64,000 nt of DNA, from positions 62,001 to 126,000 of the forward strand of contig JAKBJU010000004.1 in NCBI GenBank assembly GCA_021835845.1, read 5' to 3'. The position numbers were made by a program, and so were the translations under genes. Numbering within the stretch: position 1 is the stretch's first letter; each line of letters starts with the position of its first letter. The notes under the pieces are model-generated. The model worked only from the letters and a program-made list of their open reading frames with translations. It was not told where the DNA came from and ran no database searches. The DNA is from Pseudomonadota bacterium. GTDB taxonomy: Bacteria > Pseudomonadota > Gammaproteobacteria > Burkholderiales > JABEVD01. Shown here in pieces: positions 48,631-64,000 of this stretch.

Positions 48631-49390
48631 TCAATGAAATAACCGGTTGACCCTGTAAAGATCGGCTTCGGCAAGGTCGGCGACAGCTGCCTTCAGCTGC
48701 AACTGGCTCATCAGGAAATCGTATTTGGCATGTTCCAGATCCCGGCTGGCCGAATAAAATTGCACTTGGGCATTGAGCACATCCAGGTTATCGCGCGAGC
48801 CTGCCACGCGGCCAAGCTTCATTGCCCTCAGCATTTTCTCACTGGATTTCAGAGCCAGATCAAGCGCTTTCACCCTGGCAATGCCGTCTACCACGCCCAG
48901 GCAGGCTCGTCTGGTCTGAATGTCCACATTGCCGCGCACGTTTTCGAGATCGTCCATGGCGCGATACCGAATAGGCTCGGCTCGCGCGCAGGATCAGGTC
49001 TTGACTGGCCATCCTGTAGCGGGCATCGGCCAGCGTGACCTTGAATTCGGCTTCCGTGTAGGTCACCCAGTTGTCGAGCCGGAACAGCGGTTGGGTCAAG
49101 CTCAACACATAGCCCTTGCTGTTGAACCGGCTCGCGCCCGATTCGAAGATATTGCTGCCCTGATACTGCAGGGAGACATCGTTGCCCATGGTGTTGGCCG
49201 AAAGATCCACTTTGGGCAGAAGCAGGGAGCGGGCCTGGGGCAGCTTTTCCAAATCCGCCTTGTAAGCCTCCTGGGCAGACCTGTATATCGCATCGCTGGA
49301 CCTGGCATCGCGATAGATCTGGAGCAGGTCCATGGAACTTGCAGCCAGGGCATGAGCGGACAGGGCAAGAAAGAGTGCGGCTCTTTGCAT
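48631..49390 (-). pseudogene. TolC-family outer-membrane channel, decayed by internal deletion
   Basis: The N-terminal part (49390 to about 48965) has a short signal peptide and TolC-like sequence (DLLQIYRDARSSDAIYRSAQ, then RSLLLPKVDLSANTMGND, YVLSLTQPLFRLDNW). The C-terminal part (about 48957 to 48631) is in another frame and matches the end of TolC (RRACLGVVDGIARVKALDLA, GTR-like region replaced by AGSRDNLDVLNAQ). The middle half of the protein is missing, so the gene cannot give a normal channel. It ends the operon of the two ABC transporters and HlyD. Confidence 0.85.
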
Positions 49391-49393
49391 GGT

Positions 49394-49939
49394 TCAGGAT
49401 TCTTGAACACCTGAAAGAATCTGCATCATGCGACTGAACCTGTCCCCGGCAAGGGAAACGGTATCCAGTAGCCCATCGTCCAGTTCGTCCTCCATGATTT
49501 CGTCCGAAGACAGGTCTCCTGCCTTGCCGTAGCCCATACGCTTGATGGTCCCTCTCATTCGATCGGCGAGAAACACGGAAAGGGCGCGAAAGAAACGCAT
49601 GCCGAATCCCGTATCGATCGTGAAGCGCGCTTCGAGATCCGCCTTTGCGAGTTCGAGCAGTTTGACTTCGCTCCTGGCGGTCACGGTGGCCGAAGTGGGC
49701 GAACTGTCGACAAACGACATTTCGCCGAGCATTTCACCGGAACCCAGGGATGCGACAACCCCTAGCCCGGATATGGATACGTCCATGCGTCCTTCTGTCA
49801 GGATGTAGAGCCTGTCGAGCATTTCGCCTTCCCTGATCAGCACCGTCCCTTCCGCCAGTATGCGCCTCTTGCCCGCCTTGCCCAGCCATTCGATGTCTGT
49901 ATCGCTCAACAATCCGAAAATATATAGCACCTTGCGCAT
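49394..49939 (-). CDS. Small cyclic-nucleotide-binding-domain (CNBD) protein
   Basis: This 181-residue protein is a CNBD fold: ILAEGTVLIREGEMLDRLYI, TEGRMDVS, and a phosphate-cassette-like GEMLGEMSFVDSSPTSATVT. The Arg that normally contacts the cyclic phosphate is replaced by Thr/Ser, so cAMP or cGMP binding is doubtful. The rest is helical. The ATG at 49939 has a GGGGGAA site; the upstream frame overlaps the ABC gene. It may regulate or form part of the NHLM exporter, whose second ABC protein has a similar N-terminal region. Confidence 0.82.
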   Translation of the reverse strand: MRKVLYIFGLLSDTDIEWLGKAGKRRILAEGTVLIREGEMLDRLYILTEGRMDVSISGLGVVASLGSGEMLGEMSFVDSSPTSATVTARSEVKLLELAKADLEARFTIDTGFGMRFFRALSVFLADRMRGTIKRMGYGKAGDLSSDEIMEDELDDGLLDTVSLAGDRFSRMMQILSGVQES

Positions 49940-49964
49940 GTCACGCTTCCCCCTTGTTTTGAAA

Positions 49965-52628
49965 TCAAAGCAGCTGCCGCTTTGCCAATGCGGCGAAAGC
50001 ACCGTTTGCCGCGATCAGTTCCTCGTATCTGCCCGTTTCGACGATTTTTCCGTCCGCCACGACGATGACTTGGTCGGCGCGGGCGATGGTGGACAGGCGA
50101 TGAGCGATGACGACCCGGGTGATGTCGAGCCGGCCAAGACTCTCCATCACGGTCTCCTGTGTCCGGTTGTCGAGCGCACTGGTCGCCTCGTCCAGGAGCA
50201 AGATGCCCGGATTCCTGGCCAGTGCCCTGGCAAGAAGCAGGCGCTGCCTCTGCCCGCCTGACAGGGTTGCCCCGCCTTCCTGAAGCACGGTATGCAGCCC
50301 CATGGGCATCACATCAATGTCCGCATCGAGCCCGACAAGGCGAGCGGCATTCATGGCATCGATCTGCGAAATGCGCGTGCTTCCCGCAATGTTGGAAAAA
50401 ATGCTTCCCGCCGAGATCCGGCCGCTTTGCAGCACGACCCCTATGCTGCGGCGCAACGCCGTCAGGTCGAGGCCTGCAAGCGGCTTCCCGTCGAAGAAAA
50501 TCTCTCCGCGCTCGGGAAGCTCGAACCCCATCATGAGTCTCATCAATGTCGATTTTCCGCTTCCGGAAGGCCCCACGATGGCGACGAACTGGCCGGGCTC
50601 CACTTTCAGGGAAACGCGGTCTAGAAGAGGCGGCCCTTCCTTCTGGTAACGGAAGCTGACATCGGCAAACTCGATTTCCCCCTTCAGCACGCCGGGCGCC
50701 TTGCGGTTCCTTCCGCTTTCGGGCAATTCCCTCAAGATCGGGCTCAAGCGCTCGAACCGGGGAATCGCGCCCAGCGACTGGGTCAGCGCCAGCGTCATCC
50801 CGACCATGGCCTGCAGAAACTGCCCGAACGCCGCATTGAATGCCAGCATGTCCCCCGGCGTGAGCGGATTTTGTACCGTATCGGGATCGGGTACTGCGCT
50901 GGGGCTGGTGGCCAGGCTTTGCAATTGAATGTCGGTTGCGGCATGCTTCATCAGCCAGACCATCCCGGAAAAAAGCAGAATGCTTGCCAGCAAGGGAGTG
51001 CAGGCTTGCACCATTTCCTGGAAGTTGGCGGCGCGCTGCGCCCTGGAAAACCGGATCTTCTGCGCACCATAGGCATCGGACCAGGCTGCGAATGCGCGCG
51101 ATTCGGCTGCGGCCGCCTTGAGCTTGGTGACGCCAACGATAAACTGCAGCACGAGCCCTTCCACCCTGCCCCTGTGCCTCGTCTGCTCCCGCTCCTCGAT
51201 CAATTGTTTTTTTCCCAGCCAGGCCGATCCCGCCAGAACAGCAAGCACGATTATCAGGCCCATCAGGCTGAGCTGCCAGCTGTACCAGAGCATCACGATC
51301 AGGCTGGCCATGGAAAAAATGGAGGCGAGCACTGCGGAACTCACCGTGACGGAGAGCGTCTCGCGTATCGTCTGGATGCTGAGCGTCCTGTCTCCCAGAT
51401 CGCCTGCCGTGAATCGCCTGAAGAAGCCGACGGGAAGCCTGAGCAGCCTGTCGAAAAGCGCCGCCTGGAGATCCGCGTCGATTCTTCCCTCGATGCGCAG
51501 CATCGAGAATCCCTTGACCACCTCGAATCCGAATGCGCCGAATGCTGCGGCAAGCAGGGCGGCCACGATCTGGATATGCTGGAAATAGGCTGCCCTTGGA
51601 ATGACCGATTCGATGAGCATGCCGGTTGCGACAGGCACCATCATGCCGAGCGAAGCTGAGGCGATTCCCATGAAGACGAGGCGCTTCGCATCGCGTCCTA
51701 TTCCACCTGAAGAAAAGCGCCAAACATCCCTAGCTGAGAGCGACAGATCAGGCAACCTCGCATAGAGCATGACGGCTTCCTTGCCGATCGAAGCGGCCAT
51801 GCCCTCGTCGACTCTTGTGCATTTTCCTTCAGGCTCGACCAGCTCATACCCTCCCCTCTTAGCGCCTATCAGGGCTATTGGGGAACCGTCATCGAGACGG
51901 GCGATCAATGGCCCGTTGTCCCGGCTCCACCAGTCATCCCTGAGCAGCACCTTGCGGCTGTTGACTTCGATTCCCGAGAGCAAATTATCCAGATCATTCT
52001 CGCCCTGCAGCGCAGGGGAAAGATCCGGATCGATTCCCGCAGCCTGAGCAACCATTCTGAAAACCTTCACCAATGGCGAATCGAGCGAAGCCTGCCCCGC
52101 TTCATGCGCGATTTTCGAGAAGATGACCTGCCCCAGGCCAGCCAGACTGCTTTCGAGCGCATGATGCGATCCACGCCAGGATTCGGCCAGCCTAGCCATT
52201 CTTGCCTCTTCCTGACTGGCAAGGCGGCTCGATATCTCTTCCGCAGCTATTTCGCCGAGTCTTCCGATGTCATACGGAGATCCTCCAGGCGAAACGCCAA
52301 ACTTTTTCCACCAGCCCTCAAGCAGACCGGAAGACATTTCCGAAGGGAGCGAAGAGAAATGGGAGAATGCATCGGGCGCATGGGATACCGATGCATCGAG
52401 ATTGCCGACGGCGATCGTTTTCCTTCCCCCGATTTCGGGAAGGCCCAGAAAGACTTCCCCAGGAGAGCATTTCGTCAGGAAATGGCGTCTTCCTCCATCG
52501 TGCTCGATGCAGAAAAGATTGATTTCCCCGCTCAAAACCAGATAAGCGCCAGCTTCCCCGCAAAGGCTGATCGGACTTGAATTTGTCGCGGGATGCGCTT
52601 CATTGGGCCAGAACGGGATGGCATCCAT
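49965..52628 (-). CDS. NHLM-system ABC transporter, second ATP-binding protein (ABC2)
   Basis: This 887-residue protein matches the second ABC protein of NHLM (nitrile hydratase leader microcin) export systems. It has a CNBD-like N-terminus (about residues 20-115), a family-specific segment KVLLRDDWWSRDNGPLIARL (about 229-248), six membrane spans (about 310-575) and an ATPase domain with GPSGSGKSTL, LSGGQRQRLLLARAL and LLLDEATSALDN. It has no C39 peptidase, unlike ABC1 upstream. Its ATG directly follows the ABC1 stop. Confidence 0.93.
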   Translation of the reverse strand: MDAIPFWPNEAHPATNSSPISLCGEAGAYLVLSGEINLFCIEHDGGRRHFLTKCSPGEVFLGLPEIGGRKTIAVGNLDASVSHAPDAFSHFSSLPSEMSSGLLEGWWKKFGVSPGGSPYDIGRLGEIAAEEISSRLASQEEARMARLAESWRGSHHALESSLAGLGQVIFSKIAHEAGQASLDSPLVKVFRMVAQAAGIDPDLSPALQGENDLDNLLSGIEVNSRKVLLRDDWWSRDNGPLIARLDDGSPIALIGAKRGGYELVEPEGKCTRVDEGMAASIGKEAVMLYARLPDLSLSARDVWRFSSGGIGRDAKRLVFMGIASASLGMMVPVATGMLIESVIPRAAYFQHIQIVAALLAAAFGAFGFEVVKGFSMLRIEGRIDADLQAALFDRLLRLPVGFFRRFTAGDLGDRTLSIQTIRETLSVTVSSAVLASIFSMASLIVMLWYSWQLSLMGLIIVLAVLAGSAWLGKKQLIEEREQTRHRGRVEGLVLQFIVGVTKLKAAAAESRAFAAWSDAYGAQKIRFSRAQRAANFQEMVQACTPLLASILLFSGMVWLMKHAATDIQLQSLATSPSAVPDPDTVQNPLTPGDMLAFNAAFGQFLQAMVGMTLALTQSLGAIPRFERLSPILRELPESGRNRKAPGVLKGEIEFADVSFRYQKEGPPLLDRVSLKVEPGQFVAIVGPSGSGKSTLMRLMMGFELPERGEIFFDGKPLAGLDLTALRRSIGVVLQSGRISAGSIFSNIAGSTRISQIDAMNAARLVGLDADIDVMPMGLHTVLQEGGATLSGGQRQRLLLARALARNPGILLLDEATSALDNRTQETVMESLGRLDITRVVIAHRLSTIARADQVIVVADGKIVETGRYEELIAANGAFAALAKRQLL

Positions 52629-54788
52629 CTACATGCCCCCCACCAGGCTTGCATATTCGCCCTGCAGTTCGAGAAGGGATTCGTGGGTGCCGCGCTCGAC
52701 TACCTCTCCCCGCCTCAACACGAGGATCTCGTCGCAATCCCTGATCGTGGAAAGGCGATGGGCAATGATGACGACCGCGCATCCTCGCCGCCGCAGATTG
52801 TCGTCGATCGCCTTTTCCGTGACGGGATCGAGGGCGGATGTCGCCTCGTCCAGCACCATGAGGAGCGGGTTTCTGGTGAGCGCCCGCGCGATTTCCAGTC
52901 GCTGCCGCTCCCCTCCGCTGAAGTTCACCCCGCCTTCGTCCACTTTCGCGTCCAGGCCATCTTCGCGAGAAAGAATCTCTTCTGCGATTTTCGCATCGGC
53001 CAATGCGCATTTCATGGATTCTTCTGGCACTGAAGGATCCCAAAGGCTTAGATTCTCCCGAACCGTTCCCTCGAAAAGATAGATTTCCTGGTCGACATAG
53101 GAAACCGCAGTTGCGAACACGCGACCGGAAAGGCTGTCGAGCGCTCTTCCGTCCAGCAGCACCTCCCCTTCGGAAGGGGCGAGCAGGCCGCATGCCAGCC
53201 TGCCCACCGTCGACTTGCCGCTTCCGGAACCGCCGACCATGGCGATGCGCTGCCCCGGCTTGACCGTCAGCGAAAGGTTTTTGATGAGCGGGGCATCGAG
53301 CGGGCTGTAGCCAAAGCTCACATTGCGCAATTCGAGCATCCCCTGCAGGGCAGCGGCAGTTGCATCATCATCCTCCCCATCATTCTGACGGATCGGCAAG
53401 GGATAGCGGAAAACGTCGGACAACCTGACCAGCAGCCCCTTGATTGTCTGGATGGTGCCGGCAAGGCCGACCAGCCTGCCCACTGGTTGGGTGAATCCAG
53501 CCATCAGCAGCTGGAAGGCAATGAGGTCGCCCAGGGTCATCTCTCCGCGCATGGCCTGATAGCCGCCGATCCCGAGGACGGCGACCACGGTCAGGGTGGA
53601 GAGCAGCATCGGCGTTGCGCTCTGCCAGACGGACTGTGCGCCGAGCTTCTGCTGGGCTTCGAGCGCTGAGGCCTGGTGTCCTGCCCAAGTCGAGAAGGAG
53701 GATCCTTCCGTCCCGCTCGCCTTGATCGTCTCGATGCCTCTTATGCTCCCTACCGTCGCTCCGCCCAGCTTGCCTAGATCGTTCACCATCGCAGCCGAGG
53801 CATCCTCTCTGGAACGTGCCATGCCTTTCAGCAGGAAAAAATTGAGCGAGACGAGCGTGATGCCGACCAGGCCCAGTCTTGGATTGAAGAGCATCATGAC
53901 GATTGCGTAGAAGCAGACCGTGATCAGATTGAAGAAATTGGTCGCCAGTTCTCCAGCAAGCAGCTTCGCGATGCGCTCGCTTGCGGCAACCCTGTTTGCA
54001 ACGTCGCCCGCCTGGCGCTGGGTGAAGAAGCTCACCGGCAGCTTCAGCACATGCATGATGAAGCTGCTCGACAGGGTAACGGCGAGCTTCATCTCGAGCC
54101 TGAGAAGATAATGCTGCTGGACCCACACCAGGAATCCCCGGACAATCAAAGTCAGCACCATGGCAAGGATCAGCGGCCTGAACCATTCCTGCTGGTTGCC
54201 GATCAGCACCTCGTCGACGAATACCTTGGAAAATACCGGAACGATCACGGCAGGCACGACCAGGAGAAGGCTAGCCAGCCCGACGAAGGCAAGCGCTTCA
54301 TGGGAGTGCTTGAGACGCGAAGCCAGTTCGGCTATCAGCGAGGGCGGCCTTCCGCAGGGCTCGAATTCCGGTCCTGGCTCGAAAACCAGCACGACCCCGG
54401 TGAAGCATTCCTCGAGATCCTCGATCGATACCTTTCGCGGCCCGCTTGCCGGATCGTTGAGATAGACGATGCCGTTTCGTATGCCCTCGAAAACCAGGAA
54501 GTGATTGAAATTCCAGTGGATGATGGAAGGGATCGGCAGGGCCTGGATCGCCTTCGGGTCGTTCTTGTTGAATCCCTTCGCCGAAAGCCCGTGCCGTCTG
54601 GCGCATTTCAGGATATTGCTCGCCTTGCTGCCGTCGCGGGAGACACCCGATTCGTTCCTCAGTTCCTCCAGGGGAATCCAGCGGCCGTAATGAGCGAGCA
54701 CCATCGCCAGGGAAGCCGCGCCGCATTCGACCGCTTCCATCTGTAGAATGGCGGGGGTCCTGACCCGACGCGATGAGGCTTCAGCCAT
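52629..54788 (-). CDS. NHLM-system peptidase-containing ABC transporter (ABC1)
   Basis: This 719-residue protein cleaves double-Gly leader peptides and exports the product. The N-terminal C39 peptidase has the catalytic Cys22 in QMEAVECGAASLAMVLAHYG, a His in FNHFLVFEG and LNDPASGP; then six membrane spans (about 160-440) and an ATPase with VGGSGSGKSTVGRL, NFSGGERQRLEIARAL and VLDEATSALD. It starts directly after the HlyD stop (TGA-ATG). Confidence 0.94.
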   Translation of the reverse strand: MAEASSRRVRTPAILQMEAVECGAASLAMVLAHYGRWIPLEELRNESGVSRDGSKASNILKCARRHGLSAKGFNKNDPKAIQALPIPSIIHWNFNHFLVFEGIRNGIVYLNDPASGPRKVSIEDLEECFTGVVLVFEPGPEFEPCGRPPSLIAELASRLKHSHEALAFVGLASLLLVVPAVIVPVFSKVFVDEVLIGNQQEWFRPLILAMVLTLIVRGFLVWVQQHYLLRLEMKLAVTLSSSFIMHVLKLPVSFFTQRQAGDVANRVAASERIAKLLAGELATNFFNLITVCFYAIVMMLFNPRLGLVGITLVSLNFFLLKGMARSREDASAAMVNDLGKLGGATVGSIRGIETIKASGTEGSSFSTWAGHQASALEAQQKLGAQSVWQSATPMLLSTLTVVAVLGIGGYQAMRGEMTLGDLIAFQLLMAGFTQPVGRLVGLAGTIQTIKGLLVRLSDVFRYPLPIRQNDGEDDDATAAALQGMLELRNVSFGYSPLDAPLIKNLSLTVKPGQRIAMVGGSGSGKSTVGRLACGLLAPSEGEVLLDGRALDSLSGRVFATAVSYVDQEIYLFEGTVRENLSLWDPSVPEESMKCALADAKIAEEILSREDGLDAKVDEGGVNFSGGERQRLEIARALTRNPLLMVLDEATSALDPVTEKAIDDNLRRRGCAVVIIAHRLSTIRDCDEILVLRRGEVVERGTHESLLELQGEYASLVGGM

Positions 54789-56048
54789 TCAGTAAAGCCC
54801 GGTGGTTTTTCTGAGGAAAGGGATCAGGAGCGTGATCGGGCGCTGTTCGGTCACGGTGACTTCGGCCTCTAAGGTCGTGCCGCTCGATAACGGGTAGGGC
54901 GAGCCTTTTCTCGATGTCCAGCGATAGCCGGTCCCCGATTCTGGATCGGGAAGCAGATCGATTCTGACTTCATAGGGCGGCCCCTGGCTTGCGAATAGCG
55001 CTGTGAGAGCAGGATTGGAAAGAAGCGCATCCATGCCCTGCCTGGTCACCGGAAAATCGGATATGCTGCTCACGCGCCCGATCAGGCTGCCGTATTCTTC
55101 CTTCTTCACGTTGGCCGGACTGATTCTCGCCGCTTGCCCGACGACAAGCTTCTTTCCGTCTGCGGTCGGCATGAACAGAACCGCTTCAAACCCTTTGCGC
55201 CCCCCCTCCACGCTCAAGACCGGCTGGCCCGCCTGAACAAAATCTCCGGGCGCCGACTTCAGTTCGATCACGCGCCCGTCGATTGGGGAAGTGACGACTG
55301 AATCCTGATTCAAGGCCAGATCCTGCCGCCCTGCATTTCTTCTGGCATCGTTCAATGCCAGAACCTGCCTGCTTCGCTCTTCCCGATAACGGCTTTCGAT
55401 CTGAATCAGCTGCAGCCCCAGCTGACTCTGCTCTTCCTTGTGATTGGCAAGATCCGTCCTGATTCTGGCGATCTCCGCCCTGATTTCGTCGAGCGAGCTT
55501 TCCGAGAATATGCCCTTCCTGGCGTATTTTTCCTGCTTCTCGAGCACCCCGTTGAGGAAGGCAAGCCGATGCTCGTCAGCTTCGATCAGGGGCTGCAATG
55601 CCTTCGTCCGACCTTCGATCGCCCGCCTCTTTGCGGAAATCTCGTTCCTGTAGTCGTTGTCCAGGCGGGAGAGGGCATTTTGCTGGTCTTGAATCGCCCC
55701 TCCCGCATCCGCCTTTCGCTGCTCCCCCAATTCCTGCTCGACATAAGCGACAGGCTGGCCCTTCTTCACGACATCTCCCACCTTCACTAAAAAGTGCTTC
55801 AGGGAGCCCGAAGCCTGGCTCGATGCATTGCTGACCAACCCGCCTCTTTCAACGAGGATGCCCTGGCCCTTGACATTGGTCGGAATCGAACCGAAAACGC
55901 CCCAGATCAGCAACCATGAAATCAGGCCGCCGCAAACCGCCAAAGCGATCCAGCCCCTGGCATCCGTGATGGTGACGAGGCGATCGATCTGCTCCGGGGA
56001 CGACATCCGGTCGAGCGCAGCCTGGCGGAAAATATTTCTACCCATCAT
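54789..56048 (-). CDS. NHLM-system HlyD-type secretion protein
   Basis: This 419-residue periplasmic adaptor has the NHLM HlyD start: IFRQAALDRMSSPEQIDRLV followed by one membrane span (about residues 33-52). Then comes a biotinyl-lipoyl region with FLVKVGDVVKKGQPVAYVE, a coiled hairpin (about 100-225) and SVVTSPIDGRVIELKSAPGD. It would connect the ABC proteins to an outer-membrane TolC. It is the first gene of the minus-strand NHLM operon and is served by the divergent palindromic promoter region. Confidence 0.93.
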   Translation of the reverse strand: MMGRNIFRQAALDRMSSPEQIDRLVTITDARGWIALAVCGGLISWLLIWGVFGSIPTNVKGQGILVERGGLVSNASSQASGSLKHFLVKVGDVVKKGQPVAYVEQELGEQRKADAGGAIQDQQNALSRLDNDYRNEISAKRRAIEGRTKALQPLIEADEHRLAFLNGVLEKQEKYARKGIFSESSLDEIRAEIARIRTDLANHKEEQSQLGLQLIQIESRYREERSRQVLALNDARRNAGRQDLALNQDSVVTSPIDGRVIELKSAPGDFVQAGQPVLSVEGGRKGFEAVLFMPTADGKKLVVGQAARISPANVKKEEYGSLIGRVSSISDFPVTRQGMDALLSNPALTALFASQGPPYEVRIDLLPDPESGTGYRWTSRKGSPYPLSSGTTLEAEVTVTEQRPITLLIPFLRKTTGLY

Positions 56049-56189: not shown

Positions 56190-59100
56190 ATGCAGAATGA
56201 GCAGCCGATCTTGTCAGGAATTTTTCGAAAGAATCAGGTTCCCGCCACCTATTTCCAGACTCAGACGACCGAATGCGGCCTGGGCGCCATGGCCATGATA
56301 CTCGGCCATTTCGGCCGGTTCGTCACGCTGGAGGAGTTGCGGCAGGTCTCGGGCGTCTCGCGCGACTGCGTCAATGCAACTGATCTCGTCAGAATCGCGA
56401 AGCATTACCGACTCGAAGCCAGGGTGCTGAAGCGCGAGCCTGATTCCCTTCCAGAACTGGGATTTCCCCTCGTCGTCTATCTCAACTTCATCCATTTCGT
56501 GGTCGTTGAAGGCATGACAGCGGAAAGCGTCCTGCTCAACGACCCGGCTTGCGGAAGATTCTGCATGCCCAACGAGGAATTCGACGAAGCCTACACGGGA
56601 ATCACCCTCTCCTTCAGCCCGGGCGATGCATTTGAAACAGGAGGCAAAAAGCCCGCGCTCCATGCCATGGCAGGCCATTTCCTGAAGGATGGGAAAGCGA
56701 AAATCGTCCTCGCCATGATTTCCGGCCTCCTGCTGAATCTTCCCCTAGTCTTCTTCGCCTGGCAGGCGGATGAATTGCTCTCCAAATCCCTGGGAAGGGT
56801 CGCATTCTGGCTGATGATCGCCGCATTCATGCGGGGGGCGCTGGTATTTTTCCAGAAGAAGCTTCTGTCGAATCTGGAACTCAGGCTTTCCGGAGAAGGC
56901 GCCTCCAGACTTCTCGACCATCTCATCAGCCTTCCCCATGCCTTCTTCGTCTACAGGATACCTGCCGTGCTGCAGGGAAGAGTGCATGACCAGGCGGAAT
57001 GCGCAAGATTGCTGTGCAAGACCATCTTGCCCGCCTTTTTCAATCTTCCGGGCATGCTTTTCCTGCTTGCGGCCTTATTCCATTCCGGCATGAGGGAAGG
57101 CACTTCCGCATCATTGACGATCATCGCGTTTCTGCTCCTGATTTCATTATTGCGCCATCTCGGTTCCGGAGAATTCAGGCGCATGCGCGGGCAAAACGAG
57201 GAGTCCTGGATCAAGCTCTCCCATGCGATCGGTCATTTCGAGTCATTCAAGACGGGAAGCGGGGACATTGAGTTCCTTTCGGACAGCATGGGTGGCACCT
57301 CGGGAATCGTGAAGCTTCGCCAGATGTATGGATTCTTTCATGCCTTGTCCGAAGCTAGTCCGGAGCTGCTTATCGCAATCCTGCTGCTCTTCCTCCCGGC
57401 AAACGCATCGCCTGCCGCATTCATTCTGGCCTTCGCCCTGCTGCCCAATCTCAGGGAAATCTCGAAATTGCACGGCAAGCTCGACCTGCTCCAAGAAAAG
57501 CTTTCCCATCTTGTCGATCTGAATCAGCAGGTCCAGGAGAATCCATCTAAAGATGACGGTCCGTTTTCTGGAGCGGAATGTGTGCTCGAAGCAAGGAATG
57601 TCGAATTCGGCTTTTCCCCCGTCAAGCCGCCCCTCCTCAGGGAAATTTCGTTTGCCGTCAGAAGAGGCGAGCAGGTCGGCATCACCGGCCCGTCCGGGTG
57701 CGGCAAGTCGACCCTCGCCCAGCTTCTCGTGGGCCTCCACAAACCCTGGAAGGGGGAGTTTTTTATCGAAGGGTTGCCTGCTTCGTTCTGTTCGAGGGAG
57801 CGGCTTTCCAAAAAAATCGCCTGGGTGAACAAGCATCCCTTCTTCTTTTCAGGGTCGTTAAGGGAAAACCTGTGCCTGTGGCATGAAGCGACAAGCGAAA
57901 CAGCGCTCCATGATGCGATCAGGGACGCCTGCCTGGATGAAGTCATCGAGAGGCTTCCCGAGGGACTCGATTCCAGGGTGGAGCATCGGGCGGCGAACTT
58001 CAGCGGTGGCCAGAAGCAGAGAATGGAGATCGCGCGCGCGCTCCTTCTTGACCCGCAAATCATGGTACTCGACGAAGCGACCGACGGGCTCGATCATGCG
58101 CTCGAGCAGAAACTCAGATCCAACCTGAAAAAGCGCGGCATAACCCTGATCGTCGTGAGCCACAGGGCGAGCACGCTCGCCGAATGCGACAGGGTTCTGC
58201 GCATGGCGGAAGGGAGGCTGGTCGAGGAAATCCCTGAAAGACCCCGACCTCCAGTCATTTCCGCTTTTTCGTCCGAAGAAGACCCGATTCCTCTTCAAAG
58301 ACCTCCCGGAGACCGAAGGGAATCCCTTTTCCAATGCTTCGAACTCGTCGCATCGGAAATCGGGGAAAAATCGGTCACCCTGCCCCATGAACCGCTTCCA
58401 ACAGAAGGAAGTCGAGCGGACGAAAAAGGCCTTTCCATGCTCGCGAGATACAATCGCATTCCCATGCGCAGCGTCCGCTTCGTCGTCGGAAAATGGTGGA
58501 GACGAGACCACGGCCCCTTGATCGCCTTTCTGAAGGATGGGCATCGCCCGGTCGCCATCCTTCCATCAGGGGCTGGATATGTCATTTTCGACCCGGAAAA
58601 GGGAGCCCGGATAAAACTGGATCTGCACTCTGCGAAGCTTCTCGAAAATCGCGCATACATGCTCTACTCGCGCCATGATTCGGCAAGAAAAGGCCCATTG
58701 CGCTTCTTCCTGCACGATTTTTCCAGGCTCGCTCCCGACCTTTTCGGCGCGGCTTCTTCGAGCCTCGCGCTCGCCTGCCTTTATGCCTTCATCCCTTTTC
58801 GCCTCCTGAACGCCGATCACGGCCTTCACTGGGGAACTGCGGCGTGCCTCGCATCGGCCGCACTGGTTCTGGCAGAGGCGGCCCGCATTTCCTTCCTGCT
58901 CAGGATGGAGGGACGGCTGGAGCTTTCCGCATCCTCGGCGATCTTTCAGCGGGTCATGCGGCTTCAGCCTCTCCATTTCGGCAAGCATGGACCGGAGGAA
59001 ATTTCATCGAGCATTCACTCCATTCCACGCATCCTCGATCTGCTGGGAAACGGCGTCCTGCGCAGGCTTTTCAATATCGGAGTCTTTCTTTCCGGCATCG

Positions 59101-59786
59101 CAGCGCTCGCCTGGATATCGCTGAAGTCGGCAGGCTTCGCGTTGCTGCTCCTGCTGCCCATGCTCGTCACCATCCTGCCGGCAAGCATTGGAAATAAATG
59201 GGCAACAAGGCGTCTCCATCTGCGCATAGGCAACATGCGCTATCTCCTCGAAATGCTCAAGGCGGTTCCCAGGCTCAGGCAGATGGACAGACAAAAGCAG
59301 GCACTGAATTTCTGGAAGGCAGGACGTGAAGATGAAATGAAATTATCGGAAAAGATGGAAAATGCCGATCTGCTCGCCGATTCCTTCGCCGATTTCTATC
59401 CATGGCTTGCAAGCGTTCTCTTCCTGGTCCCGGTCAACGGAGAACCCCATGAAGTCGTCATGCTTTCCGCCTTCCTCATCTCCGCCTTTTCCTTACAGAA
59501 CTTTTCCCTGGCCTGTTCGGAAATCATGAAAATCATGCCGATGATGGAAAGACTGAATTCGCTTTCCAGCGCGCCTGTCGAGCCTAAAGCCATGGGTTCC
59601 AGGCATGAAGCGGAAACCGTCGAGATCAGAAATCTCGGATTCACCTATCCAGAAAACAGGGAAGCGGCAATCAGTGGCGTTTCGATGACGATCGCGCCGG
59701 GCGAATTCGTCGCGCTGGCCGGGCCTTCTGGAAGCGGAAAGTCGACCCTGCTTCGCCTGCTCCTCGGCTTCCCCCCCCCCCCATGA
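56190..59786 (+). CDS. Fused C39-peptidase ABC1 and ABC2 exporter, frame broken at a C12 tract
   Basis: One open frame of 1198 residues joins two ABC transporters. Part 1: C39 peptidase with catalytic Cys29 (QTTECGLGAMAMILGHFG), FIHFVVVEG and LNDPACG; membrane spans (about residues 170-450); ATPase 1 with GPSGCGKST (about 495) and NFSGGQKQRMEIARAL. Part 2: the ABC2-type VGKWWRRDHGPLIAFL segment (about 770), more membrane spans (830-1110) and the start of ATPase 2 (GPSGSGKSTLLRLL, about 1178). A run of 12 C then shifts the frame to a TGA. Removing one C joins it to the frame at 59818, giving about 1380 residues. Confidence 0.88.
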   Translation: MQNEQPILSGIFRKNQVPATYFQTQTTECGLGAMAMILGHFGRFVTLEELRQVSGVSRDCVNATDLVRIAKHYRLEARVLKREPDSLPELGFPLVVYLNFIHFVVVEGMTAESVLLNDPACGRFCMPNEEFDEAYTGITLSFSPGDAFETGGKKPALHAMAGHFLKDGKAKIVLAMISGLLLNLPLVFFAWQADELLSKSLGRVAFWLMIAAFMRGALVFFQKKLLSNLELRLSGEGASRLLDHLISLPHAFFVYRIPAVLQGRVHDQAECARLLCKTILPAFFNLPGMLFLLAALFHSGMREGTSASLTIIAFLLLISLLRHLGSGEFRRMRGQNEESWIKLSHAIGHFESFKTGSGDIEFLSDSMGGTSGIVKLRQMYGFFHALSEASPELLIAILLLFLPANASPAAFILAFALLPNLREISKLHGKLDLLQEKLSHLVDLNQQVQENPSKDDGPFSGAECVLEARNVEFGFSPVKPPLLREISFAVRRGEQVGITGPSGCGKSTLAQLLVGLHKPWKGEFFIEGLPASFCSRERLSKKIAWVNKHPFFFSGSLRENLCLWHEATSETALHDAIRDACLDEVIERLPEGLDSRVEHRAANFSGGQKQRMEIARALLLDPQIMVLDEATDGLDHALEQKLRSNLKKRGITLIVVSHRASTLAECDRVLRMAEGRLVEEIPERPRPPVISAFSSEEDPIPLQRPPGDRRESLFQCFELVASEIGEKSVTLPHEPLPTEGSRADEKGLSMLARYNRIPMRSVRFVVGKWWRRDHGPLIAFLKDGHRPVAILPSGAGYVIFDPEKGARIKLDLHSAKLLENRAYMLYSRHDSARKGPLRFFLHDFSRLAPDLFGAASSSLALACLYAFIPFRLLNADHGLHWGTAACLASAALVLAEAARISFLLRMEGRLELSASSAIFQRVMRLQPLHFGKHGPEEISSSIHSIPRILDLLGNGVLRRLFNIGVFLSGIAALAWISLKSAGFALLLLLPMLVTILPASIGNKWATRRLHLRIGNMRYLLEMLKAVPRLRQMDRQKQALNFWKAGREDEMKLSEKMENADLLADSFADFYPWLASVLFLVPVNGEPHEVVMLSAFLISAFSLQNFSLACSEIMKIMPMMERLNSLSSAPVEPKAMGSRHEAETVEIRNLGFTYPENREAAISGVSMTIAPGEFVALAGPSGSGKSTLLRLLLGFPPPP
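59771..59782 (+). repeat. Poly-C tract (12 C) inside the second ATPase domain
   Basis: A run of 12 C lies inside the fused transporter gene. With 12 C the frame ends at a TGA at 59784-59786; with 11 (or 14) C the frame continues into the rest of ATPase 2. Runs like this change length by slippage in the cell and are also a common source of read errors, so the tract could be a phase-variation switch or a sequencing artefact. Confidence 0.85.
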
Positions 59787-59817
59787 GGGAGGCATCTACC
59801 GAAACGGAAGACCCCAC

Positions 59818-60333
59818 ATGACGAGCGATCTTTCAGGCTGGCGGGAAAGGGTCGGGGCAGTTCTGCAGGACGACCAGCTTGAGGTCGCCATGTCCGTTCG
59901 CGGCCATATCGCCGGCGCAAACACACCCTACACCCTGGCCGAAATCAGGGAAGCGGCGAGGCTTGCGATGCTGGAGGAGGACATCGATTCGATGCCCATG
60001 GGCATACAGAGCATCGTCGATTCCGACAAGGTCTCGACTGGCCAGAAGCAGCGCCTCCTGATCGCGAGGAGACTGTTGAGGAGGCCTGATCTCCTGATCC
60101 TGGACGAAGCGACCAACGCGCTTCCGGAAGACATGCAGCAGAAGCTGTTTTTCAATCTGAGGAAACTCGGCATCGCCTGCCTGCTCGTCTCGCACCGGGC
60201 GAGCGCGATCGCTTCAGCCGACAGGGTCTACCTGATGGACGAAGGCAGGATCGCCTGGAGCGGCAAACCGGAAATATTCTTCTCGCAAGGCATGCATGTC
60301 AGGGAAGAAGGCGAAGATGAAACGGGATATTGA
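59818..60333 (+). CDS. C-terminal part of ATPase 2 of the fused exporter
   Basis: This 171-residue frame continues the fused transporter: Q-loop-like GAVLQDDQLE, signature VSTGQKQRLLIARRLL (in place of LSGGQ), Walker B LLILDEATNAL and the His-loop LLVSHRAS. It has no ribosome-binding site of its own and homology begins before its ATG, as expected for the downstream half of a split gene. The degenerate signature suggests ATPase 2 is a weaker, non-consensus site. Confidence 0.85.
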   Translation: MTSDLSGWRERVGAVLQDDQLEVAMSVRGHIAGANTPYTLAEIREAARLAMLEEDIDSMPMGIQSIVDSDKVSTGQKQRLLIARRLLRRPDLLILDEATNALPEDMQQKLFFNLRKLGIACLLVSHRASAIASADRVYLMDEGRIAWSGKPEIFFSQGMHVREEGEDETGY

Positions 60334-60341
60334 GGAAAATC

Positions 60342-60512
60342 ATGGATCCGCTTAAATTCAGGCAGAGAAGGCTGTTCAGGAAGGAGGCCATAGCCAATTT
60401 CGTGGGCGCGCTGGGAGACGGTTCGACCCCCGAACTGCTTTTTCGAGGATACGGATGGAGGCTGCTTGCCGCATCGATCTGCCTTGCCCTGCTCGCCATT
60501 CATGCCCTTTAG
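60342..60512 (+). CDS. HlyD-like N-terminal membrane stub
   Basis: This 56-residue ORF begins MDPLKFRQRRLFRKEAIANF and has one membrane span near the end (LLAASICLALLAIHAL). It resembles the first 50 residues of NHLM HlyD proteins such as the one at 54789-56048, where FRQAALDRMSSPEQ also precedes a single span, and stops just where the periplasmic part would begin. GAGGAAAATC precedes the ATG. It could be the remnant of a deleted HlyD gene or a small membrane protein in its own right. Confidence 0.65.
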   Translation: MDPLKFRQRRLFRKEAIANFVGALGDGSTPELLFRGYGWRLLAASICLALLAIHAL

Positions 60513-60551: not shown

Positions 60552-60584
60552 GACCATGCCGTAACTTAACAAAAGGAGATGAAA

Positions 60585-60833
60585 ATGACTCAGGATGTCG
60601 AAGCATTCAGACAGGCAGTCGACCAGAACCCTGCTCTTCAGAAGGAAGTCAAAGCGCTTGTCGTGGCGCAAGGGATCGACTACAAGGCGATCAGCGAACT
60701 TGGGGAAAAGCACAATTTCTCTTTCACCGCAGAAGAGGCCCAGCAATTATTGATGGCGTCCAACGACGAACTGTCGGACTTCGAGCTGGAAATGGTGGCG
60801 GCGGGCGGCGTATGTTGCCAAAGCGGCTTGTAA
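60585..60833 (+). CDS. Nif11-like leader peptide precursor with a seven-residue Cys-Cys core
   Basis: This 82-residue peptide has a Nif11-type leader: DVEAFRQAVDQNPALQKEVK, NFSFTAEEAQQLL and DELSDFELEMVAAGG, the last ending in the double Gly cleaved by C39 peptidases. The core after GG would be only VCCQSGL. The ATG at 60585 has an AAAGGAG site with 6-nt spacing. It lies in the promoter repeat context of the NHLM exporter and 32 nt before the FAAL protein. This combination suggests a small modified natural product, but no tailoring enzyme apart from the FAAL/NRPS is in view. Confidence 0.8.
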   Translation: MTQDVEAFRQAVDQNPALQKEVKALVVAQGIDYKAISELGEKHNFSFTAEEAQQLLMASNDELSDFELEMVAAGGVCCQSGL

Positions 60834-60865: not shown

Positions 60866-63800
60866 ATGCTGAAGAGGTTCAGTGAGCATATCAGGCTGCA
60901 GCCTGAAAAAACGATTCTGACATTCCTGCGGGACGGCGAAAAGGATGCCGTCTCGCTCTCCTTTTCCGAACTCGAAGACCGCGCGCGCAAGATCGCATCC
61001 CGCCTGCTTGTTCATGCCCCAAAGGGTTCGCGAGCGCTGCTGCTGCATCCCCCCGGGCTCGAATTCTGCTCGGCCCTGCTCGGCTGCTTCTATGCGGGCA
61101 TAATAGCCGTTCCCTGCTACCCGCCTTCCTCGAAGCTGAGCTCCCGCTCCGGCGAGCGATTCCTGAGGCTCGCCAGACACTGCGATGCGGCGATCGCGCT
61201 GACCGATTCTTCCAACATTTCGAGGCTCTTGCCCCACTTCAGACAGAGCAGCGTGAAGCTGCTTGCAACCGACAGTCCCTTCGAAGAACAATCCATCGCC
61301 CTGCCTGAAATCATCGATTCGGACCTCGCCCTGATCCAGTACACTTCCGGGTCGACCGGCTCCCCCAAGGGCGTCATGCTGACCCATGCGAACCTCGCCG
61401 CGAACCTGGAATCGATCATGTTGCGCTACGAATTATCGGAATCATCGACCGTGGTGAGCTGGCTCCCCCCCTACCACGACATGGGCCTGATCGGCGGCAT
61501 CCTTTCAGCCCTTCATTGCGGCTACCCGCTCGTGATGATGGAGCCCAGGCATTTTTTGCAGAAGCCGGTGCGCTGGCTCGAAGCGATGGACAGGTACCGG
61601 GCGGACGTCAGCGGCGGGCCGAATTTCGCCTACGATCTCTGCGCCGACAGAATCCCGGATGAAGCTATCGAGAATCTGGATCTTTCCTCCTGGACTCTCG
61701 CCTTCTGCGGCGCAGAGACGGTGAAACCGGGAACGCTCAAGCGCTTCGCCGAAAATTTCTCAAAGACCGGATTCAAGGCGTCTTCCCTATTTCCCTGCTA
61801 TGGGCTCGCTGAAGCCACCCTGATGGCGACGGCAGTTGATAGAGGAAAGGGCGCGAAAACGATCAATCTTGACGGGGCAGAAATCGTGAGCTGCGGGAAG
61901 GCAGGGGATGGGGTCGAGATCGCCATCGTCGATCCAACTACTGGAACAGTCCGTCCCGAAGGAAAGGAAGGGGAAATCCGGATCAAGGGAAAGAATGTCG
62001 CGACAGGATACTGGAACGATCACGAGGAAAGCGGGAAAACCTTCGGGAATGTCATTCCTGGAAGGGGAGACGTCTGGCTCCGGACGGGGGATCTGGGGTT
62101 TCTGCTCGACGACGAACTCTACGTGAATGGAAGATTGAAGGACCTCATCGTCCTCAGGGGAAGGAACTACCATCCATCCGACATCGAGGAGGAAGCAAGC
62201 ACAAGCCACCCTTCTCTGGAACTCAATGCCTGCGCCGCTTTTTCGATTGATGACGGCGATTTCGTGATCGCAATCGAGGTCAGGCGGGAAGCGCGCCGCA
62301 ACATCGATCCCTCGAAAATCGTCCGCGCAATTCAGGCCGGCCTTGCGCAATCCTTCGATCTTGCAGCCGGGGAGATCGTCCTCCTTCCGCCCGGTTCCCT
62401 TCCGAGGACCACGAGCGGAAAGATCAGCCGCTCCAGCTGCCGGGAGCAGTACCTTTCCGGAACTCTCAAGCCGATTCGGAAAGCACCGGATGAAGTGTCT
62501 ATCAGACTCCATTCGGAAATGGAGAAAAAAATATGCCATCTCGTATCCGGAGTGCTCAGGATTCCTCTCGATTCCATCGAACCCGAGCTGAAGCTCGGGG
62601 AGATCGGCTTCGATTCCCTGAAGCGCGTCGAACTGGCGCTCACCATCGAGGAAGCCTTCGATGTCTGCATCGATGCCGAATCCCTTTCATCCGATCTCGA
62701 TCTTTCCTCCCTTGCCTTGATGATTCGGGAATCTTCTTCACGGAAAGCTCCGCAATCAGAAGAGGCAGATGAATTCGATCCAGCAGGGCGGGAATTGCCG
62801 CTCACCCCCCTGCAGCACGCCTTCCTCCATCCAGGCCCGGAAAATCCCGAATCGTTTCTGGAAATCGTCTATCTGCGCACCCCGAGCGAACTTGACATCC
62901 ATGCATTGAAGCGTGGGCTTTTCATGCTCGAATATCGATTCGATTCGCTGAGAATGAGGTTTTCAAAGGAAGGAGATGTCTGGAAGCAGCAGTACGGCAT
63001 TTCAGGCACCGGCATTTCGTTCGAAATGATGGACGCATCGGGAATGTCGGCAGAGGAAGTCAGGAAGAACCGCACCATCATGGTCGAGAGCCTCAAGAGC
63101 GGATTCGACCTTGCCGAAGGCCCCGTGATGCGTGCCGTATTCTTTGATCGGGGAGAAAATGAGACCGGCCTGCTCGGCCTGTCCTTCCATCATCTCGTGA
63201 TCGACGTGACTTCGGTTTCGATATTCGTCACTTCCCTCCAGCATGCCTACCAGTCGGCATTGTCGGGAAATATCGTCAAGAATGGCAAATGCGAATATGG
63301 CAAATGGCTGCTTGCCCTTGATGCCTACGGAAAAAAGGAGGCATTGAAGCAGGTCGATTACTGGAAGGAAGTGTGCGGCGAATCAGAAGATGCGGATTGC
63401 AGCTTGAAGCCTGATCCTTCGCAAAGGTGGAAGTTGCTTTTTCATCCCGGGCTCTCTCCTGCGGAGAACAGGAGGTTCGTCGAAAAACATCCCCTGCCGA
63501 TCGAGAGGCACCATGCATTCCTTGCGGCATTGGCCCATGCCTGGTGCAAAATGACTGGCGAGGGCAACGCGCTGGTCCTGCTGGAATTTCACGGCAGGAA
63601 GGCATTCGAAGACACGAACCCCACGACCGCCATGGGATGGTTCGTCTGCCGCTATCCCGTCAAGCTTCCGGTGAAACAGGACCCTGCCGAATTGTTCCAG
63701 GAAACACGCAAAATAATGCAGCAGATTCCGGATGAAGGAATTGGCTACGGCCTGCTCATGATGCGGGGCGATGCCATGAAAACATTGCGCAGACCCAGGA

Positions 63801-64000
63801 TCAAGCTAATCTACAGGGGAGGGATGGACGACGGATTCAGGGAAAATGCGATGTTCCCGGTCATAGGCTCGGAAAACGTCTCGGATGCCCTTTACGAGGC
63901 CCAGGAAAATGCTGGCGAGAACTGCCATGTCGAATTGTACGTGACCATGAAGCGTGGGCAGCTTTCCTGGACTGTGCAATATTCCCCAGCATATTTCGAC
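60866..64000 (+). CDS. FAAL-carrier-condensation NRPS protein, 3' end outside window
   Basis: An open frame of 1045 codons runs off the window. It begins with a fatty acyl-AMP ligase domain (about residues 1-555) with QYTSGSTGSPKGVMLTHANL, the FAAL hallmark WLPPYHDMGLIGGIL, GLAEAT and RTGDLG. Next is a carrier protein (about 555-635, Ser584 in GEIGFDSLKRVE), then a condensation domain (from about 655) with SFHHLVIDV (HHxxxD, about residue 775). It would activate a fatty acid and pass it to an amine. The ATG at 60866 has no good ribosome-binding site; a TTG 3 nt earlier is the alternative. Confidence 0.88.
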   Translation, partial: MLKRFSEHIRLQPEKTILTFLRDGEKDAVSLSFSELEDRARKIASRLLVHAPKGSRALLLHPPGLEFCSALLGCFYAGIIAVPCYPPSSKLSSRSGERFLRLARHCDAAIALTDSSNISRLLPHFRQSSVKLLATDSPFEEQSIALPEIIDSDLALIQYTSGSTGSPKGVMLTHANLAANLESIMLRYELSESSTVVSWLPPYHDMGLIGGILSALHCGYPLVMMEPRHFLQKPVRWLEAMDRYRADVSGGPNFAYDLCADRIPDEAIENLDLSSWTLAFCGAETVKPGTLKRFAENFSKTGFKASSLFPCYGLAEATLMATAVDRGKGAKTINLDGAEIVSCGKAGDGVEIAIVDPTTGTVRPEGKEGEIRIKGKNVATGYWNDHEESGKTFGNVIPGRGDVWLRTGDLGFLLDDELYVNGRLKDLIVLRGRNYHPSDIEEEASTSHPSLELNACAAFSIDDGDFVIAIEVRREARRNIDPSKIVRAIQAGLAQSFDLAAGEIVLLPPGSLPRTTSGKISRSSCREQYLSGTLKPIRKAPDEVSIRLHSEMEKKICHLVSGVLRIPLDSIEPELKLGEIGFDSLKRVELALTIEEAFDVCIDAESLSSDLDLSSLALMIRESSSRKAPQSEEADEFDPAGRELPLTPLQHAFLHPGPENPESFLEIVYLRTPSELDIHALKRGLFMLEYRFDSLRMRFSKEGDVWKQQYGISGTGISFEMMDASGMSAEEVRKNRTIMVESLKSGFDLAEGPVMRAVFFDRGENETGLLGLSFHHLVIDVTSVSIFVTSLQHAYQSALSGNIVKNGKCEYGKWLLALDAYGKKEALKQVDYWKEVCGESEDADCSLKPDPSQRWKLLFHPGLSPAENRRFVEKHPLPIERHHAFLAALAHAWCKMTGEGNALVLLEFHGRKAFEDTNPTTAMGWFVCRYPVKLPVKQDPAELFQETRKIMQQIPDEGIGYGLLMMRGDAMKTLRRPRIKLIYRGGMDDGFRENAMFPVIGSENVSDALYEAQENAGENCHVELYVTMKRGQLSWTVQYSPAYFD

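Follow-up and report, generated by a model that had tools for sequence, protein, structure and literature searches.

Background

Precursor peptides with Nif11/NHLP leaders and NHLM export (TIGR03798; TIGR03794, TIGR03796 and TIGR03797) were described by Haft et al. 2010 (PMC2887384), and the non-TOMM NHLPs encoded next to LanM have cores of 26 residues on average (PMC2887384). Lipolanthines, goadvionins, lipoavitides and selidamides are acylated by GNAT enzymes (PMC13060382, PMC9505594). In another system, OaaA-OaaACP-OaaC, fatty amides are formed from acyl-ACP and a free amine, and in OaaC-type C domains the glycine of HHxxxDG is replaced, by Ser in 42% and by Ala in 36% (PMC13142362). In the open-access literature, we found no paper in which Nif11 is joined with a FAAL or with lipidation by an NRPS domain.

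The locus analyzed here lies in a stretch of 64,000 nucleotides from a Burkholderiales genome (hereafter, the window). It resembles the Nif11/NHLP-NHLM systems in having a Nif11 leader with a Gly-Gly-type end and adjacent HlyD, C39-ABC and ABC exporter genes. Unlike them, it has a leader that scores below the TIGR03798 cut-off, a FAAL-ACP-E-type protein instead of a TOMM or LanM enzyme, and relatives with cores of mostly 8-14 residues. As in the GNAT-lipidated peptides, a ribosomal peptide is apparently paired with an acyl supply, but the cluster showed no GNAT, and an E-type domain (hereafter, X) fused to FAAL-ACP takes its place as transferase candidate. An acyl-adenylating enzyme, an ACP, a condensation-superfamily domain, the lack of an acceptor PCP and a replaced HHxxxDG glycine are shared with OaaA-OaaACP-OaaC, which differs in its free-standing proteins, starter-clade-related C domains and small-molecule amine acceptors (PMC13142362). 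Domain order, size and an E-type third domain are shared with the TycA and GrsA initiation modules (A-PCP-E), whereas a FAAL replaces the amino-acid A domain, the active-site signature is altered, the genome has no partner C domain and the protein ends after X. The locus is a Nif11 RiPP system, potentially with a new RiPP lipidation route, and its short-core precursor family is apparently undescribed.

The precursor gene and its neighbors

The precursor gene runs on the plus strand from ATG 60585 to the stop at 60833. The 82-aa Nif11-type product ends in LSDFELEMVAAGG-VCCQSGL and reads in full MTQDVEAFRQAVDQNPALQKEVKALVVAQGIDYKAISELGEKHNFSFTAEEAQQLLMASNDELSDFELEMVAAGG-VCCQSGL. Its 75-residue leader ends in ELSDFELEMVAAGG, after which only seven residues, VCCQSGL, precede the stop; the full Nif11-like leader and very short core described in an earlier note, made from the sequence alone, were found exactly as stated. 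A good ribosome-binding site (AAAAGGAG) ends 6 nt 5' of ATG 60585, which is the likelier start because the in-frame ATG at 60579 directly abuts this site. The precursor exceeds the gathering cut-off of Pfam Nif11 (PF07862; 28.7 bits, cut-off 23.8), whereas its match to NCBIfam leader_Nif11 (TIGR03798) spans the profile at 28.9 bits, below the curated cut-off of 32.3. It is the sole Nif11 match in the 2.2-Mb genome. A chance open reading frame is ruled out by conservation and by the ribosome-binding site.

The gene for the FAAL-ACP-X protein starts 32 bp downstream of the precursor (Table 1). All three NHLM components (TIGR03794, TIGR03796 and TIGR03797) score above their cut-offs and are clustered, which defines an NHLM export system. 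Most of this gene set, in varying order, surrounds the precursors of two further loci (L003, L004) and of genomes G796, G875 and G859, and L005 has precursors together with FAAL-ACP-X. Several of the alphaproteobacterial clusters also carry an AraC-type regulator. In most clusters, a second exporter, in which C39, ABC and ABC are fused in one chain of 1360-1435 aa, stands beside the ordinary NHLM exporter. Just beyond the window end, after the FAAL gene, a 1172-aa regulator with BTAD, cyclase-like, AAA and TPR segments is encoded (L006 5127-8645).

Among the scanned window and cluster proteins, with several small or doubtful open reading frames lying outside the scan, there was no YcaO, LanM, Lan dehydratase, radical SAM enzyme, GNAT or other enzyme of RiPP modification. 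The enzymes by which a TOMM or lanthipeptide cluster is recognized (YcaO, LanM or Lan dehydratase) are thus not seen among the scanned proteins, nor is the GNAT of GNAT-dependent lipidated RiPPs such as lipolanthines and selidamides.

Table 1. Features of the precursor locus, in window coordinates unless a locus is named
Feature	Position	Strand	Basis or remark
Outer-membrane efflux protein (OEP/TolC type)	48631-49390	-	read in two frames, frameshifted
Cyclic-nucleotide-binding-domain (cNMP) protein	49394-49969	-	member of the conserved set
NHLM ABC2 exporter	49965-52628	-	TIGR03797, 802.2 bits, cut-off 709.4
NHLM ABC1 exporter with C39 peptidase	52629-54788	-	TIGR03796, 997.8 bits, cut-off 853.3
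NHLM secretion protein, HlyD type	54789-56048	-	TIGR03794, 298.8 bits, cut-off 156.2
Fused C39 peptidase-ABC-ABC exporter (NHLM ABC1 + ABC2 in one chain; 1435 aa in L003)	56190-60333	+	split into 56190-59786 and 59818-60333
Remnant (56 aa) of small HlyD-like partner	60342-60512	+	163-197 aa in L003, L004, L094
Ribosome-binding site AAAAGGAG	60571-60578	+	sequence
Nif11-type leader, 75 aa, with C39 double-glycine-type motif VAAGG at its end	60585-60809	+	translation; Pfam PF07862, 28.7 bits; DELSDFELEMVAAG common to homologues
Core peptide VCCQSGL and stop	60810-60833	+	translation; alignment with VCGNTGL of L003
FAAL-ACP-X protein, 1076 aa from ATG 60866	60866-64000	+	ends 96 nt past the window (L006:5096)
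FAAL domain	about 60893-62476	+	domain of FAAL-ACP-X
ACP domain (GFDSLK)	about 62528-62713	+	domain of FAAL-ACP-X
Epimerization-type domain X	about 62792-64063	+	domain of FAAL-ACP-X
Fused C39-ABC-ABC exporters of other loci	L003 10477-14784; L004 402-4697; L037 5371-9474; L041 5434-9516; L045 4220-8428		

A family of short cores

Scanning GTDB species genomes revealed three loci with precursors 46-50% identical, the same LSDFELEMVAAG and the same kinds of neighbors: L003 (a Burkholderiales MAG), L004 (a MAG labelled Methylocystaceae; genome G765) and L005 (Terasakiella pusilla; genome G766). A profile built from seven precursors then recovered precursors in five more genomes of the Terasakiella order. 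Weak matches in G175, G116, G661, G712, G1183 and G535 were excluded from the counts; they are different Nif11-type proteins, most of which have a longer tail or a different motif. One of these genomes, G535, encodes three Nif11-like precursors in tandem (L014, reverse strand 1378-2644), next to a B12-binding-like open reading frame; their ends are related (NDELSDFELEMVSGG, EDELTEAELELVAGG) and their cores are short, at roughly 12-18 residues.

Core lengths and sequences were counted from AAG. Homologues with AAG-T/A/L/C suggest that cleavage follows AAG rather than AAGG, in which case the window core is GVCCQSGL (8 aa). The 18 homologous precursors, from 8 other genomes, have cores of 10-24 residues, and the median over all 19 cores, including that of the window, is 12. 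These cores are TPIVCGNTGL and APINCGRGAKQL in L003; GSVSCIKGDI, LPINSSSGATEMS and VVIKQSGNNMV in G765; CVIGEAHNKGTI and GSTSCIKNDV in L005; LPTQCNGGMQGMS in G1013; LPINCSSGAVRMQ, APTNTHSGGT, IPINCEQETVKA and VPVNCERETIKA in G796; LPVNVSGGNGGIPG and NAVWCDSDDA in G875; and four of 17-24 aa, two per genome, in G859 and G960.

The window core is the shortest in this short-core family, not an outlier among long ones, and the 18 homologous short cores rule out a truncated outlier. Its closest relative is the core of L003, TPI-VCGNTGL against VCCQSGL, with V, C, G, L and one S/T position in common. A start of the form xP[IVT] is found in 9 of the 19 cores. At least one Cys occurs in 13 cores, at core position 5 in nine, and every listed genome has at least one Cys-bearing core; six cores have none, and no single type of nucleophilic residue is present in all 19. 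The Cys-Cys pair is confined to the window (1/19). Judged from these alignments, core shortness characterizes the whole family, whereas the second Cys is a private change of the window copy. The earlier note had suggested that the two adjacent Cys could form an N-terminal thiazoline, a disulfide ring or a lipidation site. As the family's reactive centre, the pair is rejected: it is not conserved, and the cluster showed no cyclodehydratase (YcaO). With the pair in one core and six cores lacking Cys altogether, a general mechanism cannot depend on adjacent Cys.

FAAL-ACP-X carries a remodelled epimerization-type domain

The FAAL domain is closest to solved FAALs such as 3kxw and FadD23 (about 205-443 bits), against 103 bits for the LgrA A domain; by sequence it is clearly nearer to FAALs than to amino-acid A domains. 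The ACP serine and the lysine of TTSGK are present in all seven aligned proteins. The combination found in FAA systems (acyl ligase, ACP, C-superfamily domain, no acceptor PCP) is present here, and the protein ends after X.

In a Pfam search, X is returned as Condensation. A single-sequence phmmer search of PDB chains placed PvdL E2, TycA E, TycB3 E and GrsA E at the top (121 to 70 bits), whereas no C domain exceeded 33 bits. A maximum likelihood tree was constructed from 42 domains from five NRPS loci and the FAAL-ACP-X family. The seven X domains form a clade (100/100) on a long stem within the epimerization clade (97/98). The combined clade is separate from the three starter C domains located after FAALs and apart from all other C domains but one, L062_1472, the next branch out. 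The distance of X from starter C domains refers to this set of NRPS and FAAL-ACP-X domains, which contains no FAA-type C domains. An AlphaFold model of X (pLDDT 83, pTM 0.82) had only E domains at Foldseek ranks 1-12. E and C structures gave overlapping VIA-align Z values, so the fold alone would not separate E from C. Together, phmmer, tree and Foldseek rule out a true condensation or starter-C domain.

The intact E signature (HHxxxDGxSWR, EGHGRE, FNYLG) is found in none of the seven X domains. All of them keep both His, the Asp, the Glu of EGHGRE, GWF, PxxGxG and a Tyr; all have HHxxxD[AV]xSxS for HHxxxDGxSWR (the DG glycine replaced by Ala or Val, SWR by SxS), ExxGR with the Glu kept, and xYRG for FNYLG, with the Asn lost. 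By sequence, tree and predicted fold, X is a remodelled NRPS epimerization-type domain and no true condensation domain. The earlier note had suggested that so short a core would suit a condensation domain as acceptor; the tie to an acyl-loading protein, with the peptide as the sole evident acceptor, agrees with this idea, but the domain is of the epimerization type by sequence, tree and fold.

Precursors and FAAL-ACP-X occur together

The X protein adjoins precursors or shares a cluster with them in the window, L003, L004, L005, G796, G875 and G859; other precursors are found at a distance from the FAAL gene (L039, L040). Among 297 genomes of the Terasakiella order, the precursor profile matched 7 at an E value of 1e-6 or better, and the X profile matched 6 with scores of at least 590 bits; below these, scores dropped to 203 bits, in NRPS-size open reading frames. 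All six X-bearing genomes are among the seven with precursors (hypergeometric P = 8e-12 if genomes are treated as independent, which they are not fully, kinship being ignored). At the level of gene content, short-core precursors are paired with FAAL-ACP-X.

Genome G1013 has a precursor, NHLM genes and the fused exporter without any PF00668 domain. A further FAAL-ACP-X protein is encoded in G543, on a 4.4-kb contig, beside a full-length small HlyD-like gene; the contig holds no precursor, and none for G543 was among the matches listed in the phylum-wide precursor search. Plasmid and phage collections gave no match to FAAL-ACP-X over the full length beyond ordinary FAAL-NRPS similarity. In 8 of 9 tested genomes, X is the sole condensation-superfamily (PF00668) domain, so no carrier-bound acceptor or NRPS acceptor module is evident.

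Discussion

We see an even chance that the genes of the window form a compact system that makes a short and probably acylated ribosomal peptide, in which the FAAL loads the ACP and X transfers the acyl group to the core. We infer the roles of FAAL, ACP and X, and with them the chemistry, from their domain families. The FAAL would convert a carboxylic acid to its acyl-AMP and load it onto the ACP serine; the acid is most likely a fatty acid. X would bind acyl-ACP as the E domains of TycA and GrsA bind aminoacyl-PCP and, in place of epimerizing, would transfer the acyl group to the peptide. The acceptor would probably be the freed N-terminus of the core, that is, the alpha-amine after C39 cleavage, which is the most general candidate because no side-chain nucleophile is common to all 19 cores. 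The leader may recruit the enzyme, the exporter or both, and the two C39-bearing exporters of a cluster might, speculatively, divide the work. Such systems would yield ribosomal lipopeptides, most of them about 8-14 residues long.

Transfer to the core is favored because the short peptide is the recurring nucleophile-bearing companion, because no downstream C domain or acceptor module is evident, and because the Oaa system offers a precedent. The specific proposal that a FAAL-ACP-E-derived protein lipidates short Nif11 cores, an epimerization-type domain having turned acyltransferase with a ribosomal acceptor, is made tentatively, at somewhat under an even chance. Counting against acyl transfer to the core, X descends from epimerization domains and keeps the E-type glutamate, so it could instead catalyze racemization or another acyl-ACP reaction; G1013, with precursor and exporters but no condensation-superfamily domain, also counts against it. 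In transporters of this kind, cleavage by C39 normally accompanies export, and N-acylation of a cleaved core in the cytosol is then harder to reconcile.

The window copy may be switched off or decaying, as its lesions suggest. In the fused exporter gene, a poly-C12 tract (59771-59782) is one base off frame relative to L003 and leaves the downstream ATPase out of frame; the OEP gene is frameshifted, and the small HlyD partner is truncated. Phase variation, sequencing error or decay may account for the C12 frameshift. No other C or G run in the window reaches a length of 9. The break in the OEP gene (two frames, 48631-49390, minus strand) has no homopolymer. In eight genomes of the same genus, X is absent save for one probable cluster relic, a 43-residue fragment with 60% identity to the X domain (G002, L085 1654-1782). 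Another congener (G007, L009 1426-1617) has a leader-like peptide that ends in ENDELSDFGREMIALAGN with a stop at the expected core start, also a probable relic. On these grounds, the cluster could be decaying or phase-off in the window genome and the short CC core a drifting relic, which would be compatible with acyl transfer as the explanation for the family as a whole. The precursor, FAAL-ACP-X, NHLM HlyD, ABC1 and ABC2 are intact, however, the core still matches that of L003 (VC..[TS]GL), and the C12 tract may be a switch or an error; we consider a relic unlikely, if well short of negligible.

X might still act as an isomerase, epimerizing or isomerizing the ACP-bound acid at the alpha position, with the released acid or lipid as a separate product and the peptide as a co-exported partner or regulator. 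Its place within the epimerization clade, the retained His, Glu and Tyr of the E active site, the twelve best Foldseek matches and the TycA/GrsA architecture with FAAL for A are all consistent with this role. We nevertheless regard it as improbable: all seven X have lost the glycine of DG, the WR of SWR and the asparagine of FNYLG, the genome has no trans C domain to use the product, and the close tracking of X by the precursor family would be left unexplained.

We give little credence to export of an unmodified peptide, as a signal or antimicrobial, with FAAL-ACP-X acting on something else. G1013, which retains precursor and exporters without X, and the precursors distant from the FAAL gene would be so explained, but not the shared clusters in seven loci of two classes, the reciprocal co-occurrence across genomes, or a conserved set without another candidate acceptor. 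Chemistry centred on a core Cys (CC in the window), whether as acceptor by S-acylation, perhaps with an S-to-N shift, or as thiazoline or disulfide, accords with the frequency and position of Cys but is very unlikely in view of the six cores without it, the restriction of CC to the window and the lack of a cyclodehydratase among the cluster proteins seen.

For genome searches, X-type domains (HHxxxD[AV]xSxS, E..GR, YRG) can serve as markers of short-core Nif11 precursors, which may escape gene callers. If acyl transfer to the core is true, ribosomal lipopeptides would also arise by an assembly-line route, a third one for RiPPs after GNATs and the lipoprotein pathway, and the system would directly join assembly-line synthesis with ribosomal peptide synthesis. 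With an acceptor that is gene-encoded and tiny, the scope of acyl donors and peptides could be explored by simple mutagenesis. The system would also be a case of an epimerization domain evolving into a transferase.
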